DNA of 42,758 bases, taken from NCBI GenBank assembly GCA_947381435.1, contig CANCVE010000027.1, forward strand, positions 1-42,758, written 5' to 3'. The notes below the pieces were generated by a model, which saw only the letters and a program-made list of their open reading frames with translations, did no database searches and was not told where the DNA came from. This stretch comes from Chitinophagaceae bacterium. GTDB lineage: Bacteria > Bacteroidota > Bacteroidia > Chitinophagales > Chitinophagaceae. Within the stretch, counting starts at the first letter, position 1; every line of letters begins with the position of its first letter. Of the stretch, positions 2,848 to 30,770 are shown piece after piece. Position numbers and translations under genes: made by a program.

Positions 2848-4224
2848 TCAATTTTTCCTATTCTTCTTATACCACTCTTTAAACGATTCTTTTGGAGGAG
2901 CAGGCATTTCCCTTTGTTTAAACCATGGATTCATGCCATTGCTAACCACAAATGGTGTGTTCTTTAACACCCATCTTGCAGCTTTACCAGATATGTCATA
3001 TAAAGCAGGTTTAGATAATACCCATCCCATCATCTTCATACTTGCATTCTTGGTAGTAGGGCCTAATCCTTCTTTCATCAATACCTGACGCCATTTGTAT
3101 AGTTGATCATGTATATCAATCTTTACGGGACAAACATTACTACAACTACCACAAAGGGTAGATGCAAATGGTAAATCCTTATTTACACGCATATCAAAGT
3201 TCGGCGTGAGGATACTTCCTATTGGTCCTGCAACAGCATTGTGGTAACTGTGTCCACCGCTTCTTCTATAAACAGGACAAGTATTCATACAAGCAGCACA
3301 ACGGATGCACTTCAAAGAATTTCTAAAGTCTTCTTTGCCTAATTGCACGCTTCTGCCATTATCTACCAATACCAAATGCATTTCTTGGTGAGGTTGTGGC
3401 TTTTTGAAATGACTTGAGTAGGTAGTTATCGGTTGACCAGTTGCACTTCTTGCCAACAAACGAAGAAAGACACTAAGGTGCTGTTGTTTAGGGATAATCT
3501 TTTCAATACCCATACAAGCTATGTGAACGTCGGCTAAGTGTGCACCCATATCTGCATTTCCTTCATTGGTACTCACTACAAATTCACCTGTTTCGGCAAC
3601 TGCGAAGTTTACACCTGTCAAAGCTACACGTCTGGTAAGAAACGTTTCCCTTAAGTGTTCTCTTGCTGCAGCAGTAAGGTATTTAGGATCAGAAGCGCCT
3701 TTGTCGGTACCTAAATGCTCGTGAAATAGTTCTCCTATTTCTTCTTTCTTCCAATGAATACAAGGCAATACAATATGACTTGGTGGTTCTTTGGCCAATT
3801 GTACAATACGTTCACCAAGATCGGTATCAATTACTTCAATGCCATTATGTTCTAAGTGTTCATTCAGGCCGCACTCTTCGGTAAGCATGCTTTTGCTTTT
3901 CACCATGCGGTCCACCTTGTGCTTCTTCAATATTTCATGCACAATTTGGTTATGTTCTGCCGCATCTGCCGCCCAATGAACAATGACCCCATTAGCTATT
4001 GCATTCTTTTCAAATTCTTGTAAGTATTGGCTTAGATTGCTCAATACATTATTCTTTATCTGAGAAGCATATTCCCTCAATTGTTCCCATTCTGGTAATG
4101 CATGACTTGCCAAGTCTCTTTTCTCTCTGATAAACCAAAGAGTTTTATCATGCCAGTCTACCCTTGGTTCATCAAGGTTAAATTGTATTGCTGCATCTGC
4201 GTGATTGGTAACTTTACTATGCAT
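2848..4224 (-). CDS. lutB: LutB-type iron-sulfur LUD-domain protein of lactate oxidation
   Basis: A 458-residue subunit of the L-lactate oxidation complex. The N-terminal LUD domain carries TGVNFAVAETGEFVVSTNEG. A ferredoxin-like module follows with two 4Fe-4S cysteine clusters, CIRCAACMNTCPVYR and CGSCSNVCPVKID. The C-terminal tail (PWFKQREMPAPPKESFKEWY) is typical of LutB. Together with LutA and LutC it oxidises lactate to pyruvate and passes the electrons on; the known complex is cytoplasmic or membrane-associated. Its stop codon lies inside an AT-rich repeat and forms a double stop (TGA TAA) with the next codon. The same repeat occurs at the lutA end. Confidence 0.93.
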   Translation of the reverse strand: MHSKVTNHADAAIQFNLDEPRVDWHDKTLWFIREKRDLASHALPEWEQLREYASQIKNNVLSNLSQYLQEFEKNAIANGVIVHWAADAAEHNQIVHEILKKHKVDRMVKSKSMLTEECGLNEHLEHNGIEVIDTDLGERIVQLAKEPPSHIVLPCIHWKKEEIGELFHEHLGTDKGASDPKYLTAAAREHLRETFLTRRVALTGVNFAVAETGEFVVSTNEGNADMGAHLADVHIACMGIEKIIPKQQHLSVFLRLLARSATGQPITTYSSHFKKPQPHQEMHLVLVDNGRSVQLGKEDFRNSLKCIRCAACMNTCPVYRRSGGHSYHNAVAGPIGSILTPNFDMRVNKDLPFASTLCGSCSNVCPVKIDIHDQLYKWRQVLMKEGLGPTTKNASMKMMGWVLSKPALYDISGKAARWVLKNTPFVVSNGMNPWFKQREMPAPPKESFKEWYKKNRKN

Positions 4225-4231
4225 GTTTTTT

Positions 4232-4319
4232 TAATTGATAATTTTCAATTTATAATTGACTTTTCCACCGTTGATAAGTATCTTTCAACCTATCAATTGT
4301 AAATTATCAATTATCAATT
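4232..4319. repeat. AT-rich inverted repeat at the lutA/lutB junction
   Basis: Left arm 4232-4259 (TAATTGATAATTTTCAATTT...) and right arm 4291-4319 (TATCAATTGTAAATTATC...) are imperfect inverted copies of the motif AATTGATAATT. The right arm runs into lutA and supplies its last codons and a TGA TAA double stop. A related copy lies at the lutB/lutC boundary (about 2833-2855). Confidence 0.7.
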
Positions 4320-10917: not shown

Positions 10918-11085
10918 GCGAATAATATGCCCTAAATTTTTGTACAGCACACTTTTACCGCGAATAATGTGTGCTAAATTTTTGTACAGCACGTTTTTGT
11001 CGCGAATAATATGCCCTAAATTTTTATACAGCACACTTTTGTCGCGAATAATGTGTGCTAAATTTTCGTACAGCACACTTTTTTT
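10918..11085. repeat. Four 42-bp tandem repeats of alternating type
   Basis: Units start at 10918, 10960, 11002 and 11044. All share GCGAATAAT...CTAAATTTT...TACAGCAC. Units 1 and 3 carry ATGCCCT where units 2 and 4 carry GTGTGCT, so the array is really two 84-bp pairs. In unit 4 GTGTGCT pairs with AGCACAC to make a hairpin (one end base is lost in unit 2). The unit is a multiple of 3, which keeps a spurious frame open. Confidence 0.85.
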
Positions 11086-12901: not shown

Positions 12902-13063
12902 TTATTAGTTGTTAGTGATTAGTTATTAGAATTGATGTAGAAATATGAGTTTACTGTTTACTGGTCACTGTTTACTGCTCACTAACAACTAATCACTAAC
13001 AACTAATCACTAACCATTAATAATTAACCACTAACCACTAACCACTAATAACTAATAACTATT
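12902..13063. repeat. TTAGTTGTTAGTGATTAG-type repeat tract after the stop codon
   Basis: Starts directly at the stop of the preceding gene with TTATTAGTTGTTAGTGATTA. Inverted copies follow (CTAACAACTAATCACTAAC and CCACTAACCACTAATAAC), with ACTGTTTACTG.TCACTG words between. It can form a long imperfect hairpin and might act as a 3' end structure. Related tracts lie at 35885-35930 and 39035-39060. Confidence 0.6.
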
Positions 13064-14119: not shown

Positions 14120-14132
14120 GTGTTTTCTTTTT

Positions 14133-14421
14133 CAACACATAGGAACATAGGGAGATAGGAAACATAGGAGGAGAGTAATCATTGTTTTTTTTTTCAACAC
14201 ATAGAAACAATATGGAAATAGGAAACTTAGGAGGAGAGTAGTAATTGTTTTTTCGACACATAGAAACATAGGAAAATGGGAAACATAGGTGGAGAGTAGT
14301 AATTGTTTTTTCAACACATAGAAACATAGGAAAATAGTAAACATAGGAGGAGAGTAGTAATTGTTTTTTTTCAACACATAGGAACATAGGGCGATAGGAA
14401 ACATAGGAGGAGAGTTGGAGA
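14133..14421. repeat. Five tandem copies (58-62 bp) of the ACACATAG repeat, left array
   Basis: Copies begin at 14133, 14195, 14254, 14312 and 14372. Each reads CAACACATAGRAACATAGG, then GGAAACATAGGAGGAGAG and a T-run. Length varies mainly in the T-run, as expected of slippage. It begins 14 bp after moaD. The open frames on the minus strand here are products of the repeat and not genes. Confidence 0.9.
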
Positions 14422-14993: not shown

Positions 14994-15323
14994 GCTTTCT
15001 ATGTTTCCTAACTTCCTATGTTTCTATGTTTTAAAAAGATAGAATCAACGCATAGAAACATAAATTCATAGTAGGATATTTATAGATAAGAAACACTATG
15101 TTTCCTAATTCCCTATGTTTCGATGTGTTAAAAAGATAGAATCAACGCATGGAAACATAGATTCATGGGAGGATATTTATAGATAAGAAAAATTATGTTT
15201 CCTAATTCCCTATGTTTCTATGTGTTAAAAAGATAGAATCAACGCATAGAAACATAGATTCATAGGAGGATATTTATAGATAAGAAAAACTATGTTTCCT
15301 AATTCCCTATGTTCCTATGTGTT
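14994..15323. repeat. 97-bp tandem repeats (3 full copies plus part), right array
   Basis: Full copies at 15033-15129, 15130-15226 and 15227-15323, each exactly 97 bp; a truncated end copy occupies 14994-15032. Each unit ends CCCTATGTTTCTATGTGTT and begins AAAAAGATAGAATCAACGCA, so across each junction CTATGTTTCTATGTGTT pairs with AACGCATAGAAACATAG. Relative to the left array the core word is inverted. The array ends 12 bp before moeB. Confidence 0.9.
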
Positions 15324-15334
15324 AAAAAAGAAAA

Positions 15335-16441: not shown

Positions 16442-16897
16442 ATGAAAGAAAAGAAGGTTAAAAACATATTTGTACAAGGGCCAATTGCCAGCTCTTTTAT
16501 TGCCGATAGTATTCAGAAGCATAGCACTAAAACAAGTATTGGCGCGCACAGTATCTTTATTGGACAAGTGAGAAGCGATGTTATTAACGATAGAAAAATA
16601 GTAGCAATAGACTATACTACCTACGAAGAGATGGCATTGGAAAAGATGCATGAAATAAGGGAAAGCATCTTTGCAAAGTACCCACTTACCTGTATGCACA
16701 TTCACCACAGCTTGGGCGTAGTTGCTTCTGGAGAGATGTGTTTATTTGTTTTTACCTCAGCTATACACCGAAAAGAAGCAATTGATGCGTGCGAAGAAGT
16801 AGTGGAACTAATTAAAAAAGAATTACCTATCTGGGGGAAAGAGATTTTTGAGGATGATTCACATAAATGGAAAGAAAATCATTACAGTGAACAGTAA
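16442..16897 (+). CDS. moaE: MoaE, large subunit of molybdopterin synthase
   Basis: A 151-residue MoaE. Recognisable parts are GAHSIFIGQVRSD, AIDYTTYEEMALEKM, HHSLGVVASGEMCLFVF, HRKEAIDACEEVVELIKKEL and PIWGKEIFEDDSHKWKEN, which include the conserved Arg, the active-site Lys of the IKKELPIWGKE block, and the final Trp-Lys-Glu. It converts precursor Z to molybdopterin with thiocarboxylated MoaD. It begins the base after the moeB stop. The last four residues (YSEQ) and the stop codon are built from a dispersed repeat (ACAGTGAACAGTAAACAG), so the repeat appears to have replaced the original 3' end. Confidence 0.93.
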   Translation: MKEKKVKNIFVQGPIASSFIADSIQKHSTKTSIGAHSIFIGQVRSDVINDRKIVAIDYTTYEEMALEKMHEIRESIFAKYPLTCMHIHHSLGVVASGEMCLFVFTSAIHRKEAIDACEEVVELIKKELPIWGKEIFEDDSHKWKENHYSEQ

Positions 16898-17090
16898 ACA
16901 GTTATCAGTAGACAGTTATCAGTAGACAGTTATCAGTTATCAGTGATTATCGGTTGGCATTTATCAGTAATAGAATCCTATTAACGTGCAATTATTAAAC
17001 TGAATAACATTTACTAACTGTTTACTGCTAACTGTTCACTGTAGAACTGCTAACTGCTAATTGTAGAACTGCTAACTGTTCACTGTAGAA
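16882..17090. repeat. CAGTGAACAGTAAACAG-type repeat tract at the end of moaE
   Basis: Plus-strand words AACAGTAAACAG and AGTAGACAGTTATCAG (16890-16950) face inverted words CTGTTTACTGCTAACTG and TGTTCACTGTAGAAC (17017-17090). A hairpin between the convergent moaE and lrp genes is possible. The left part overlaps the moaE stop codon and the right part ends 3 bp from the lrp stop. Confidence 0.7.
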
Positions 17091-19032: not shown

Positions 19033-19087
19033 GAATGTTGTAAGTGTTATGTTATAAGTATTACGTATTAAGTAATAGGTTTTAAGT

Positions 19088-19127
19088 AAAACACCCGCTT
19101 CGAGATATACTTCGAAGTGGGTGTTTT
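19088..19127. terminator. Bidirectional terminator between ahcY and the kdp kinase
   Basis: AAAACACCCGCTTCGA (19088-19103) pairs with TCGAAGTGGGTGTTTT (19112-19127), with one G-U pair and an 8-nt loop. Flanking A- and T-runs let it work on both strands. It serves ahcY (+) and the histidine kinase operon (-), whose stop is 59 bp away. Confidence 0.8.
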
Positions 19128-19185: not shown

Positions 19186-20868
19186 TTATACATTCAAGTT
19201 AAAGTAGAAATTACTTCCTACCCCATATTTGCTTTCTACGTTTATGGTACCCCCTTGTGCTTCAATAAACTCTTTACTGATGGCTAAGCCAAGTCCAGTT
19301 CCAGACTTGCTAGTCCCCGGTACTTGAAAGTATCTGTCGAATATTTTGCTTATATATTTTGACTCAATCCCCTTTCCACTATCTTTTACAGAAAATGAAA
19401 CGAGTTTATCATGTTTATTAATCTCTATATTAACTTCTCCATTTTCTGGACTGTAGCGAATGGCATTCGTTAAAAAGTTTATTAAAACCCATGCTGTCTT
19501 CTCTTTGTCTGCTTTTACATTTGGGAGATCTTTCGATGTTTTTGTAATTAAAGTAATATGCCTTTGCTCTGCTTGAACCTTTACTGCTTCGGTGGCATAC
19601 TTTAAAATATCAAAAGGGCTGCAAAGCTGTATATTCAGTTGGATATTGCCTGTCTCCACTTGTGACATGTTTAGTAGTTCGCCAGTAATTTTTAATAATC
19701 TATTGCTATCGTCTTTTATACTTTCTACCAGTAAGTTTTGTTCTTCATTGAGTATGCCAGTGTTGGTACTCTTCAAAAGTTGTAAACTCATTTTAATAGA
19801 CGCAATTGGTGTTTTTAATTCGTGAGAAACGGTAGCAATAAAATTTGTTTTAGCTTCATTCAGTTCATGGAAAGGTGTAATATTTCTAAGAACAATCACT
19901 TCCCCAATCACCTTTCCTTCATTGCTCACCTTCAACACATCCTTGTTGAAATAACTTTCTTTATTGTCAGCATAAATCTTCAATTCATGTTGGTCCTCAT
20001 CTTTCAACAAACGTCGCATCAAATCATTTTGGAGGGCAATGTCTGGTGCATATTGTCCAATAATATCCTTTTCTTTCAATGCCAGAACCTTTTCAGACAC
20101 CACATTCAAAAACAAAATGTTCTTATTTTCATCAAAGCCAATAATGCCATCACGCATCTGGTTAATGATGGTTTCAATCCTTCTTTTCTCAAAAGTAATC
20201 TTTGCTAAATTGCTATTTTCATATTCATCAAGCTTCTCTGTCATCGTATTTATGGCATCTGCAAGTTCTTTAAACTCATCTTCTTGGTCAAGATAAATTC
20301 TGTTTTTATAATTTTTACTAGCAATTTCTTTTATCCCTTTAGCCAATGCTTTCACCGGTGTAGAAATTACATCTGGGAAATTTATCGTTAACGTAAAAGA
20401 AATGATTGTAAGAACAGAGAACACAATGGTTAACCAAAAGATGGCACTACTTGCAGACTTCTGCGCATTTTCGTTTTTTCGAAGAATAGCATTTTGGTTA
20501 ATGGTATTAATTTGTTGTAAGGCCTGCCTCAATTCCTTGTAATTAGTATTGTCTAGAGGACTTTTTTTTAATTTATCAAAGCTGCTACGTAATTGTTTAG
20601 TGGCCTCTTCCTCACCATATTCCGTAATGTTTTTCTCCTGATTTTGCAGATTTGTTTCAAAATCAGTAAAGGCTTGTTTATTGTCTGGCAATTCATCCAA
20701 CGACTTCAGCATATTGTTATTATACACCAACGTCTCGTAGTTATTCTTTAAAATTTTATCTGCATCGTTGCTTAGCTTGCTGATAGAAACTATACCCAGT
20801 ATCCCAAACACCAGAATTACGATGAACAAGAAGCCGATGCCAACCGTCAATTTTGCCTTTAATTTCAT
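19186..20868 (-). CDS. Membrane sensor histidine kinase of the kdp locus
   Basis: A 560-residue kinase. TM1 is about residues 7-29, a helical periplasmic segment of about 110 residues follows, TM2 is about 142-164, then HAMP, then a PAS domain (about 230-330: INQMRDGIIGFDENKNILFL). The HisKA domain has His349 in ATVSHELKTPIASIK. The HATPase has an N box near Asn468 (FLTNAIRYSPENGE), DSGKGI and GTGLGLAISKEF. It overlaps the KdpD-N gene by one base (TAATG). In this split layout it takes the role of the C-terminal half of E. coli KdpD, although its own membrane topology (two TM with a periplasmic domain) differs from the four-TM bundle there. No response regulator gene is adjacent. Confidence 0.9.
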   Translation of the reverse strand: MKLKAKLTVGIGFLFIVILVFGILGIVSISKLSNDADKILKNNYETLVYNNNMLKSLDELPDNKQAFTDFETNLQNQEKNITEYGEEEATKQLRSSFDKLKKSPLDNTNYKELRQALQQINTINQNAILRKNENAQKSASSAIFWLTIVFSVLTIISFTLTINFPDVISTPVKALAKGIKEIASKNYKNRIYLDQEDEFKELADAINTMTEKLDEYENSNLAKITFEKRRIETIINQMRDGIIGFDENKNILFLNVVSEKVLALKEKDIIGQYAPDIALQNDLMRRLLKDEDQHELKIYADNKESYFNKDVLKVSNEGKVIGEVIVLRNITPFHELNEAKTNFIATVSHELKTPIASIKMSLQLLKSTNTGILNEEQNLLVESIKDDSNRLLKITGELLNMSQVETGNIQLNIQLCSPFDILKYATEAVKVQAEQRHITLITKTSKDLPNVKADKEKTAWVLINFLTNAIRYSPENGEVNIEINKHDKLVSFSVKDSGKGIESKYISKIFDRYFQVPGTSKSGTGLGLAISKEFIEAQGGTINVESKYGVGSNFYFNLNV

Positions 20869-21995
20869 TACGATAGTATTAAAATGTCAATTTCTGAGGC
20901 TGACAATTTATTTAATAATTGGTTGAAAACAGCAGAACTCAATATCACATTCCAAATAGTAAGATGTGGTTTACCAATACAAATTGTTGTAATACCTTTC
21001 TGCTCCGAAGCTTCAAAAATACCCCTTGCAATGTTCTTATTCTTCAATCGTATAACTTCTCCTCCCAATTCGGCAGCCATCTTAAAGTTATTAATCAAAT
21101 GACGTTGTTCGGCAAGTCCAATGTTATCTCCGCTTTCGCTTGGTGTCTGAACATAAAGCAAGAACCATTTGCTATTGTAAGAAGAAGCCATCCGCGCAGT
21201 TTTGCGAATAACTTTCTTGGCAATATCATGGTTACTACTAATGCACGCCATAAAACGTTCGGGTTTCAGTTGGGCATTCCGTGGAATTTCAATTTCAATC
21301 TTGCGTTCCACTTGGCTAGCCACTTCCTTCAAAGCTAGCTCTCGTAATTGTAAAATCTTCTCGCTTTTAAAGAAATTATTGAGTGAAATCTGAATCTTAT
21401 CAGGCGTATAAATCTTTCCTTCCTTCAACCGGTTTATCAGTTCGTCAGCTGTCAAATCAATGTTCACCACCTCATCCGCTTGTTGCAAAACACTATCAGG
21501 AATCCTTTCCGAAACACTGATACCTGTAATGTTTTTCACCTCATTATGTAATCCTTCTAAGTGTTGAATGTTCACGGCACTGATTACATTGATGCCCGCA
21601 TCCAAAATATCCATCACATCTTTCCAACGCTTATCATTCTTGCTTCCTTCAATGTTTGAGTGCGCCAGTTCATCTACAATCACCACTTCGGGGTGCAGGT
21701 TCAGTACTGCCTGCATATCAAACTCTTCCAATTCCTTTCCTTTGTAAAACAATTTCCTTCGGGGAATGATGGGCAGCCCCTCTATCAAATCGTGTGTTTC
21801 TTTTCGGTTGTGCGTTTCAATATACCCAATCTTAATGTCCACCCCACTCCTCAAAAGACTATGCGCTTCTTGCAGCATCCGGTATGTTTTTCCCACGCCA
21901 GCACTCATTCCTATATAAATCTTAAACTTCCCACGCCTACTTTTACGTATGAGGTCTAAAAAATGTTCAGCATTATTTCTTACTTCTTCTGGCAT
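20868..21995 (-). CDS. kdpD: KdpD N-terminal sensor protein (KdpD and USP domains, no kinase)
   Basis: A 375-residue cytoplasmic protein equal to the N-terminal half of KdpD. The KdpD domain has Walker A GMSAGVGKT (residues 29-37), GYIETHNRKET and VIVDELAHSNIEGSKNDKRW, followed by INTVISAVNIQHLEGLHNEV-like sequence. Residues about 245-375 form a universal-stress-like domain (FMACISSNHDIAKKVIRKTA, ICIGKPHLTIWNVILSSAVF). There is no histidine kinase part; the next gene, overlapping by one base, supplies one. It follows kdpC after 316 bp that hold the 21-bp palindrome array. Split KdpD is frequent in Bacteroidota (recalled). Confidence 0.92.
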   Translation of the reverse strand: MPEEVRNNAEHFLDLIRKSRRGKFKIYIGMSAGVGKTYRMLQEAHSLLRSGVDIKIGYIETHNRKETHDLIEGLPIIPRRKLFYKGKELEEFDMQAVLNLHPEVVIVDELAHSNIEGSKNDKRWKDVMDILDAGINVISAVNIQHLEGLHNEVKNITGISVSERIPDSVLQQADEVVNIDLTADELINRLKEGKIYTPDKIQISLNNFFKSEKILQLRELALKEVASQVERKIEIEIPRNAQLKPERFMACISSNHDIAKKVIRKTARMASSYNSKWFLLYVQTPSESGDNIGLAEQRHLINNFKMAAELGGEVIRLKNKNIARGIFEASEQKGITTICIGKPHLTIWNVILSSAVFNQLLNKLSASEIDILILS

Positions 21996-22076: not shown

Positions 22077-22298
22077 AAGTTTAAAATTCTATCGCAAAAG
22101 CTTAAGCTTTCGTCGCATAAGTTTAAACTTTCGTCGCATAAGTTTTAACTTTTGTCGTATAAGTTTAAACTTTTGTCGTATAAGTTTAAACTTTTGTCGT
22201 AAAAGTCATGACTTCCGTGGCATAAGTTCAAGCTTTTGTCTCATAAGTTTGAACTTCCATCGGATAAGTTTGAACTTTTGCGACAGAAGTTTAAGCTA
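22077..22298. repeat. Eleven palindromes at exact 21-bp spacing between kdpC and kdpD
   Basis: A 12-bp core, typically AAGTTTAAACTT, starts at 22077, 22098, 22119, 22140, 22161, 22182, 22203, 22224, 22245, 22266 and 22287: always 21 bp, two helical turns. Linkers are variants of TTGTCGTAT. Several variants stay fully palindromic by changing both arms: AAGCTTAAGCTT (22098) and AAGTCATGACTT (22203). Others, such as AAGTTTGAACTT, are one step from symmetry. Stops in the array rule out a peptide repeat. It could be a protein-binding platform or an mRNA processing region in the kdp transcript. Confidence 0.9.
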
Positions 22299-22311: not shown

Positions 22312-22878
22312 CTACTTCTTCAACTCATCCAAAGCAATATTCAGCTTCAAAACATTTACCTTTTCTGTGCCGAATAAGCCTAAAAGAGTTTTTTCTATAT
22401 GAGAATTAACCAAAGCAAGCACTTGCTCTGGGGCAAGCTTACGTTCCTTGGCAATTCTGTTTACCTGTACCAATGCACCTTGCACACTAATGTCAGGATC
22501 CAATCCACTACCTGAAGACGTTACCAAATCGGCAGGAATATCCAGTTTGGTGACAGTAGGATTATGAACCATGAAAGTATCAATCCTATCATTAACCTGC
22601 TTTAGATAGTCAGGATTTGATGGACCTTTATTGCTACCAGAACTACTGGCTGCATTGTAACCAGCCGCAGAAGGCCTACCGTTAAAGTATTTATCCTGCG
22701 TAAAGCTTTGCCCCTCCAAGGCATAGCCCTTTACCTTTCCATCAACAAGAATGGTTTGTCCCTCACCTTTATTAGGCGCCAATTGGGCAAAACCGAGAAC
22801 TATCAAAGAATACAATCCGCAAAACACCACTATACAGATGCCTGTAAGCCTCAATGCGGGAAGAATGTGCTGTTTCAT
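22312..22878 (-). CDS. kdpC: KdpC subunit of the K+-transporting ATPase
   Basis: A 188-residue protein with one N-terminal membrane helix (about residues 9-31) and a periplasmic domain. Family blocks are GYALEGQSFTQDKYFNGRPS, AAGYNAASSSGSNKGPSN, PADLVTSSGSGLDPDISVQG, RIAKERKLAPEQVLALV and EKTLLGLFGTEKVNVLKLN. KdpC holds KdpA and KdpB together and favours high-affinity potassium uptake. It is third in the kdpA-kdpB-kdpC order on the minus strand, 157 bp after kdpB, a gap that contains a 20-bp perfect inverted repeat. Confidence 0.95.
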   Translation of the reverse strand: MKQHILPALRLTGICIVVFCGLYSLIVLGFAQLAPNKGEGQTILVDGKVKGYALEGQSFTQDKYFNGRPSAAGYNAASSSGSNKGPSNPDYLKQVNDRIDTFMVHNPTVTKLDIPADLVTSSGSGLDPDISVQGALVQVNRIAKERKLAPEQVLALVNSHIEKTLLGLFGTEKVNVLKLNIALDELKK

Positions 22879-25095: not shown

Positions 25096-25392
25096 ATGTT
25101 GGTAAACGAACAATCTTTGGCATTATATGAAACCATCAACCAAATGGGTTTTGGTACAGTAGAGGACTTTGCATTAGAGAAGGCTAAAGAGACTCTACTG
25201 AAAGAAGTAGCCAATTGCACACAGCGTATGTCTTTCTTTTCAAGTAAGTATGGAGTTGACTATGCTGAGTTTTGTAAAAATTTTCACTCATTACCTCAAC
25301 CCATTTTTGAAAAGGAAGAAGATAGTGCAGACTGGAACGCAGAATTGAAACATTTGGATATTTTAATGAAGCGATTATCCAAACTAAGCTAA
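25096..25392 (+). CDS. Probable antitoxin-like partner of the TumE-like protein
   Basis: A 98-residue soluble helical protein (ALYETINQMGFGTVEDFALE, AKETLLKEVANCTQRMSFFS, WNAELKHLDILMKRLSKLS). Family not firmly recognised, and no clear DNA-binding HTH. Its TAA shares one base with the ATG of the DUF6516/TumE-like gene (TAATG), the tight coupling usual for toxin-antitoxin pairs. It runs against the kdp operon, between kdpB and kdpA. Antitoxin role inferred from position, size and coupling. Confidence 0.65.
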   Translation: MLVNEQSLALYETINQMGFGTVEDFALEKAKETLLKEVANCTQRMSFFSSKYGVDYAEFCKNFHSLPQPIFEKEEDSADWNAELKHLDILMKRLSKLS

Positions 25393-25742
25393 TGTTATCC
25401 ACTATCTCCCTCTTTACAGATACCATCAATTCTTTTGAAGTCTTATTACAAGAAAAACGGATTGACCTTACTAAAACTAAAATCAAACTGATATTGCGTG
25501 ATGAATCTATTATCTTCCTACGTGAAATCATTATCAAAGAAATTTTATGTGATTATTCTTATCATTGGTTAAATCCTGATGGTAGTTTAATTATCCGTTG
25601 GGATAATACACCTCACTTTCCTGAAATTTCCGAAACATTTCCACATCATAAACATGTTGAATCTGAAACTAATGTCTTACCCTCTAATGAACAGAACTTG
25701 TTGGATGTTCTTCGTTTTATTAAAGGAGCAATAAATCAATAA
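25392..25742 (+). CDS. DUF6516 / TumE-like protein, probable toxin
   Basis: A 116-residue protein. The middle and end match the DUF6516 (TumE) family as I know it: CDYSYHWLNPDGSLIIRWDN, then TPHFPEISETFPHHKHVESE and a terminal NLLDVLRFIKGAI helix. Conserved His and acidic residues suggest a catalytic or metal site, but the activity is not known to me for this member. It is translationally coupled to the preceding 98-residue gene by TAATG. It ends 41 bp from the end of kdpA, which is convergent. The pair lies antisense in the kdp operon. Confidence 0.75.
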   Translation: MLSTISLFTDTINSFEVLLQEKRIDLTKTKIKLILRDESIIFLREIIIKEILCDYSYHWLNPDGSLIIRWDNTPHFPEISETFPHHKHVESETNVLPSNEQNLLDVLRFIKGAINQ

Positions 25743-29710: not shown

Positions 29711-30077
29711 TTTCTTACCATCAACCGCCCTTGCTCGCGTCATTGCGAGGTACGAAGCAACCTTTTTCGCGTAATTAGCTTGTTTTAATTGGTAAAAGGT
29801 TGCGTTTAATTGGTAGAGTGTTGCTTTGAATTGGTAAAAGGTTGCTTCGTGCCTCGCAATGACGTTCATTTTATTCTGGAAGGTTGAGATTTAGGGGGTG
29901 ATGTTGTTATTTTATTTTCATTTCTTACTATCAACCGCCCCTGCTCGCGTTATTGCGGTCACGAAGCAACCTTTTTCGCGTAATTAGCTTGTTTTAATTG
30001 GTAAATGGTTGCGTTTAATTGGTAGAGCGTTGCTTTGAATTGGTAAAAGGTTGCTTCGTGCCTCGCAATGACGTTCA
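29711..30077. repeat. Direct duplication (offset 210 bp) of a GCGAGG...GCAACC palindromic element
   Basis: Copies at 29711-29868 and 29921-30077 differ at only a few positions. Each is bounded by CATTGCGAGG.ACGAAGCAACC and GGTTGCTTCGTGCCTCGCAATG, so each can fold on itself. Inside each copy are three 21-bp units around TTTAATTGGTA...GGTTGC (in copy 1 at 29783, 29804 and 29825). The family is also at 11456-11539 and, decayed, at 28201-28269. Confidence 0.85.
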
Positions 30078-30665: not shown

Positions 30666-30770
30666 ATAAACCTTACGAGAGTAACCATATACCTCACGAG
30701 AGTAACCATAAACCTAACGAGAGTAACCATAAACCTCGCAAGAGATTCAATAAACCTCGAAGAAGCAACA
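30666..30770. repeat. Five 21-bp tandem repeats
   Basis: Units anchored on ATAAACC (ATATACC in unit 2) start at 30666, 30687, 30708, 30729 and 30750, exactly 21 bp apart. The common words are ATAAACCT.ACGAGAG and TAACC. The array lies downstream of uvrA, before its terminator on the far side. It is unrelated in sequence to the kdp 21-bp array. Confidence 0.85.

Follow-up and report, generated by a model that had tools for sequence, protein, structure and literature searches.

The tandem array between kdpC and the KdpD sensor-domain gene in a stretch of 42,758 nucleotides from a Chitinophagaceae bacterium (hereafter the window) is an ordinary member of a real and unusual class of repeats, and no kdp-specific role is needed to explain it. 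With moderate confidence, we regard it as belonging to a genus-specific class of intergenic minisatellites that undergo birth and death, have a period of 21 bp or 42 bp, and are biased towards symmetry. A length of 21 bp corresponds to two turns of B-DNA. The arrays and the neighbouring genes in the window are as follows.

22077-22298, no strand: 11-unit array, period 21 bp; unit AAG-N6-CTT plus a 9-bp spacer; consensus AAGTTTAAACTT TTGTCGCAT
22312-22878, minus strand: kdpC, upstream neighbour of the array (Pfam KdpC, 1.9e-66)
20868-21995, minus strand: KdpD sensor-domain gene, downstream neighbour of the array (Pfam KdpD, 3.2e-91)
10918-11082, no strand: further array of the class, period 42 (TRF)
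29783-29847, no strand: further array of the class, period 21, 3.1 copies (TRF)
29992-30056, no strand: further array of the class, period 21, 3.1 copies (TRF)
30666-30758, no strand: further array of the class, period 21, 4.4 copies (TRF)

The units of the kdp array start at 22077, 22098, and so on to 22287, all exactly 21 bp apart, which confirms the strict register over 11 units reported in a preliminary description; the last (11th) unit is without a recognisable spacer. TRF assigned to the array a period of 21, 10.4 copies, 75% matches, and 1% indels. Its position between the pump and sensor genes had also been given correctly, and kdpB, kdpA, and a histidine kinase gene are found around the two neighbours. 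The naming of eleven palindromes was overstated: five of the 11 12-bp cores are perfect palindromes, whereas four have five of six pairs and two have four of six. The entire window contains 16 perfect 12-bp palindromes, including the five inside the array. Both symmetric variants described earlier are present, AAGCTTAAGCTT at 22098 and AAGTCATGACTT at 22203. The inner six positions are palindromic in six of the 11 units as compared with 3.4 on shuffling (P 0.04). Measured against chance, the array nature is clear and the signal of paired arm change is only weak.

The class was defined in a sample of the own genome consisting of the window and twenty 20-kb stretches picked by contig, in total 443 kb or about 9% of the genome. 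TRF detected 44 arrays of at least 60 bp, of which 28 have a period of 21 or 42 (63 per Mb) and seven more have a period of 22, 41, or 43; the units are many and mostly unrelated in sequence. This density extrapolates to roughly 300 arrays of period 21 or 42 in the own genome. The same periods were found in 10 of 15 arrays in stretches from ten relatives of the genus (180 kb, some of it selected at kdp or array hits) and in 10 of 11 arrays at nine kdpC loci of the genus, whereas they were found in 3 of 12 arrays at 71 kdpC loci outside the genus (1.21 Mb, 2.5 per Mb) and in none of three arrays from ten other genera (165 kb). L137 was counted with the genus group. The frequency of these periods in the own sample and in the relatives' stretches, set against that at the 71 outside loci, favours the minisatellite reading. 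Among named relatives, uncultured Chitinophagaceae are the nearest by KdpC. No array of period 21 or 42 was present in the examined stretches of G155, G135, G148, G150, and G152; the G152 stretch L205 carries 9-bp arrays of up to 46 copies at 3398-4243 instead.

For the orientation of the gaps, 35 arrays of the own sample (443 kb) with a period of 20-22, 41-43, or 63 were counted: 17 lie in tandem, four in divergent, and three in convergent gaps, three are at stretch edges, and eight lie under short ORFs (55-96 codons) that were retained by our own hexamer gene caller and are probably spurious. Gaps of at least 150 bp in general are tandem in 72, divergent in 27, and convergent in 11 cases. 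Since the orientation of array gaps is roughly that of gaps in general, a 3'-end role of the arrays was rejected, and the transcript boundary proposed in the preliminary description is not borne out.

Units related to that of the kdp array, which we call the AAG family, were found at six further places in the own genome (C31, C21, C11, C23, and two in C3, one of the C3 arrays being divergent), where they adjoin unrelated genes. Beyond the own genome they occur in 4 of 12 genus relatives, that is, in 5 of 13 genomes with the own included; a family-level sample of 147 genomes gave two with matches, namely the own genome and another of the genus. After kdpC, a period-21 TRF array is present in 8 of 12 genus orthologs (own, G155, G148, G154, G149, G047, G156, and G151; 2.4 copies in G148), but the AAG unit is absent from this gap in all 11 relatives examined. 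One unit is common to G155 and G047, and the others differ. G153 has about 1.6 units (by eye) of the unit that is repeated 10.7 times in G156, and the kdpC orthologs of G135, G147, and G150 showed no array by TRF and no unit; in G147 no kdpD frame was seen within 1.5 kb after kdpC. Because a three-protein tree joins the own genome with G155 (support 85, with weak values of 41 and 56 at two inner nodes), either the own kdp array would have replaced an older one or the unit common to G155 and G047 would have moved.

Turnover was likewise observed at other orthologous gaps. The gap between a gene that we take to be bioD-like (AAA_26 by Pfam; similarly, the name lipoprotein is our presumption for a DUF5017 gene) and the 5-FTHF cyclo-ligase gene carries arrays of at least five unit types in 7 of 12 genomes (2.1 copies in G153) and none in five of 12; in three of these five (G147, G152, and G150) the upstream reading frame extends into the next start. 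Three further gaps carry arrays sporadically, in 5 of 11, 1 of 13, and, provided that a period-44 array in G153 is counted beside the own array, 2 of 10 genomes; at the last of these gaps G152 has 7-bp repeats. Two gaps retain arrays in most inner species, which counts against the minisatellite reading. At the C31 locus the AAG family is present in the own genome and G155 and absent from five further orthologs, among them one with a 28-bp array; homogenisation is visible at unit position 21, where 15 of 16 own units have T and 10 of 12 units in the G155 ortholog have G. The own C21 array and its G155 ortholog both have 11 units and differ by 14 substitutions without a gap, and one of these changes falls in AAG/CTT as against four expected by length. 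Changes affect 14 of 222 array sites and 19 of 1507 flank sites (Fisher P 1.9e-5), but 14 of the 19 flank changes lie within one 300-bp stretch, and the near-identity of the two sequences (L258 and L259) ends beyond about 300 bp on the other side, with 231 of 983 sites differing in the 1000 bp downstream, so that the comparison gives only a hint that the array may change faster than its flanks. The border between near-identity and divergence in L258/L259 is as recombination would leave it. Diverged tandem units, homogenisation within arrays, and a unit number varying between relatives (one genome per species) were thus all found, as in a variable minisatellite. The preliminary description had named random unit numbers, indels off 21 bp, and a lack of symmetric substitutions as marks of a neutral minisatellite; unit numbers and families do vary freely, but 23 of 28 period-21 arrays have 0% indels in TRF, whose parameters favour indel-poor arrays, and symmetric variants exist.

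Self-complementarity of the class is a bias and not a rule. Units had higher stem scores than shuffled units, with a mean mid-P of 0.279 for 53 mutually dependent arrays, as against 0.477 for 400 control intergenic 21-mers. With a control in which one column permutation was applied to every unit of an array, 25 of 27 families folded better than the middle of the control and seven were below 0.05; the 45 arrays of this test are mutually dependent, and the families are loose (units with four or more common 8-mers, single linkage), some unlike units having been merged. A symmetry test on 20 arrays from four orthologous gaps gave a mean P of 0.18, and a first palindrome test by unit shuffling gave P below 0.05 in 5 of 28 arrays. 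Curvature through A/T phasing at 10.5 bp was rejected, as no enrichment was found (mean P 0.447, 53 arrays). At L098:10238-10412 two short period-21 arrays are mutual inverted copies, and at L115:19766-19966 (period 41, by eye) and L202:5376-5611 (period 42) each unit consists of two largely complementary halves and equals one hairpin.

A half-site profile was made from 99 interior units of the AAG family, taken from 182 without a motif filter (15 of 18 arrays contributing, two divergent arrays excluded, two units trimmed per array end). It was revealed that A1, A2, and G3 have frequencies of 0.95, 0.95, and 0.99 and C10, T11, and T12 of 0.99, 1.00, and 0.99; T5 (0.99) and A8 (0.91) are also frequent, positions 4, 6, 7, and 9 range from 0.44 to 0.78, and the spacer from 0.61 to 0.93. 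The profile is mirror-symmetric (distance 0.10 versus a median of 0.70 over axes). Conserved symmetric half-sites, as in an array of operators or nucleoid-protein sites, were found for the AAG family only. AAG-N6-CTT also occurs at 21 bp in three other units of the cyclo-ligase gap, but was rejected as a universal motif; at least three copies are present in 19 of 73 arrays, 16 of which are of the purposely collected AAG family. The preliminary description had proposed testing covariation of the arms across the kdp gap of relatives. Because none of them keeps the AAG unit there, that gap offers no comparable sequences, and covariation was examined within the AAG family, in 154 of 182 units (28 without a 5-of-6 match to AAG..CTT dropped). 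Full palindromes are weak at 23 versus 20.6 expected (P 0.24), and pairs 4-9, 5-8, and 6-7 gave P 0.36, 0.017, and 0.004; with unique cores per array (89 units) the values were 0.30, 0.07, and 0.009, and 0.18 for full palindromes, and with the 51 globally unique cores 0.08, 0.17, and 0.03, and 0.10 for full palindromes, all uncorrected for several tests. Arm covariation was rejected as proof of selection, being weak. The earlier suggestion that two-fold symmetry is favoured stands across the class and in the half-sites of the AAG family, but paired arm changes are weak.

The location of the window array between pump and sensor genes, together with the recurrence of period-21 arrays after kdpC in the genus, might point to a regulator site that belongs to the kdp operon alone. 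We find this hardly credible, because the unit mostly differs in relatives and related units stand beside unrelated genes; the own-genome copies at other loci and the survey of orthologs after kdpC speak against an exclusive kdp role. The kdp-specific element of the preliminary description has thus been given up, since related units occur at six other places and mostly unrelated or no units follow the relatives' kdpC. An RNA element, in which the transcribed array would fold into a long structure and part pump from sensor expression via termination or processing, is improbable. Predicted RNA folds are strong (z -6.8 for the own kdp array, -5.9 for G155, and -8.4 for G154), but tandem palindromic DNA folds well regardless, the weak arm covariation speaks against an RNA stem as the selected feature, arrays lie in divergent gaps too, and the kdpC orthologs of G135, G147, and G150 are without array or visible unit. 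A comparison with Rfam gave 12 matches at E up to 1, none of which came near its gathering score. Still less probable, in our view, is an origin of the arrays as cargo or remnants of a MITE-like mobile element. This would accord with one unit family at several loci, but nine arrays, compared with their 150-bp flanks, have no flank sequence in common apart from a duplicated gene region, an orthologous pair, and a single 13-bp match, their best left/right inverted matches do not go past 5-8 bases, and no phage, plasmid, or viral match was obtained. Array searches, including that with the exact pattern, were without such a match, and an origin from phage, plasmid, or virus was rejected.

The main rival of the minisatellite reading, which we consider possible but do not favour, is a binding platform: a dimer of a DNA-binding or nucleoid protein, or a methyltransferase that recognises a bipartite dyad, would occupy AAG-N6-CTT dyads spaced by two helical turns on one DNA face and form a filament or local domain. 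Near-fixed AAG and CTT, a variable remainder, and a mirror-symmetric profile are the pattern expected of two independent dimer half-sites, for which weak pairwise covariation is also expected, and the three other units with AAG-N6-CTT in one orthologous gap agree with it. The half-sites of the AAG family look constrained, as if dimer-bound. Frequent inversion of cores could explain the mirror profile but leaves the fixed ends unexplained, and neutral homogenisation does not explain why AAG/CTT are near-fixed while other positions vary. On the other hand, the units of other families are unrelated, so a single protein would not read all of them, many orthologous gaps are without arrays, and the AAG-family units have common ancestry and hence are not independent. 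It is unlikely, though not negligibly so, that 21-bp dyad arrays are built or read by a dedicated factor that is nearly indifferent to the letters, period and dyad symmetry being the selected signal while the sequence drifts; such reading would amount to a geometry-based chromosome code.

According to the minisatellite reading that we prefer, arrays would arise, have their units homogenised against one another, be present at several intergenic sites, and be lost or replaced by other unit families. Hairpin-prone seeds may be duplicated and inverted more easily during replication, but this route is not the whole story because several arrays lack self-complementarity. The AAG-N6-CTT half-sites of the AAG family may be kept because they are read, probably by a dimeric DNA-binding protein. 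Tandem repeats in bacteria are usually ascribed to slippage, which alone gives no ground for one unit length across many unrelated sequences; this also weighs against a minisatellite. A clade that has in common 21 or 42 bp and a symmetry bias, but not sequence, is a natural test case for whether repeat length is set by helix geometry, by a protein, or by the replication machinery. Should a protein take part, the arrays would represent a novel type of binding platform spanning the genome.

A CRISPR array has by definition unique spacers between its repeats, whereas the spacers of the window family are copies of one consensus. No description of a genus-wide 21-bp repeat class was found by title or start of abstract in the open-licence literature. 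The nearest known system in form is BrickBuilt, a MITE minisatellite of Porphyromonas gingivalis, which has 23-nt head-to-tail units without spacer, always intergenic, in 19 copies in one strain, with one unit and with leader and tail ends carrying inverted repeats (PMC4596501); 41-nt tandem repeats of 464/PgRS elements are mentioned in the same paper. The present arrays are from the same phylum and share head-to-tail units of nearly two helical turns without spacer, intergenic location, and several copies per genome, but differ from BrickBuilt in having many units, a period of 21 or 42, and no common ends, no shared leader or tail with terminal inverted repeats being found in nine arrays with 150-bp flanks (PMC4596501). 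REPs of the CGTC type have 8-9-bp stems and are mostly head-to-head dimers, head-to-tail ones being negligible (PMC3733652). They resemble our arrays as short palindromic intergenic repeats in many copies, and some spacers here include CGTC itself while many have CGTC-like letters, but the present units are head-to-tail at 21 bp with cores of at most six pairs; neither a CGTC tag ending an 8-9-bp stem nor a predominance of head-to-head dimers was found (PMC3733652). The tandem repeats of archaeal Borgs are perfect copies of varied length, about half of them in genes (PMC9879509); they too are genome-wide, fast-evolving, of many unit sequences, and restricted to a group, whereas here units diverge, the period is 21 or 42, and arrays are intergenic. 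TAACTGA heptamers are direct repeats of one 7-nt sequence that, in the genome chiefly studied, usually lie close to start codons (PMC4679880). They are similarly intergenic and patchily spread, five Bacteroidetes included, but differ from the 21/42-bp units by their single-sequence 7-nt unit (PMC4679880).

Further features were observed in the window. Separate arrays of period 7 or 14 (e.g. CACTAAC, CAGTTAT) at 12979-13061, 16884-16944, and 19035-19088 resemble the described heptamer repeats (PMC4679880). Period-58 and period-97 arrays at 14128-14415 and 14999-15328 (TRF) are built from similar CATAGAAACATAGG-like pieces. KdpD is apparently split at 19186-21995 into a sensor-domain protein and a separate HAMP-HisKA-HATPase kinase that overlap at 20868, and two plus-strand frames (98 and 116 aa) at 25096-25742 lie between kdpB and kdpA, opposite to the operon. 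A long inverted repeat (GCGTCATTGCGAGGTACGAAGCAACC ... GGTTGCTTCGTGCCTCGCAATGACG) encloses a period-21 array at each of 29738-29864 and 29947-30073; the second copy is partly altered, and the ends resemble CGTC-type REPs.
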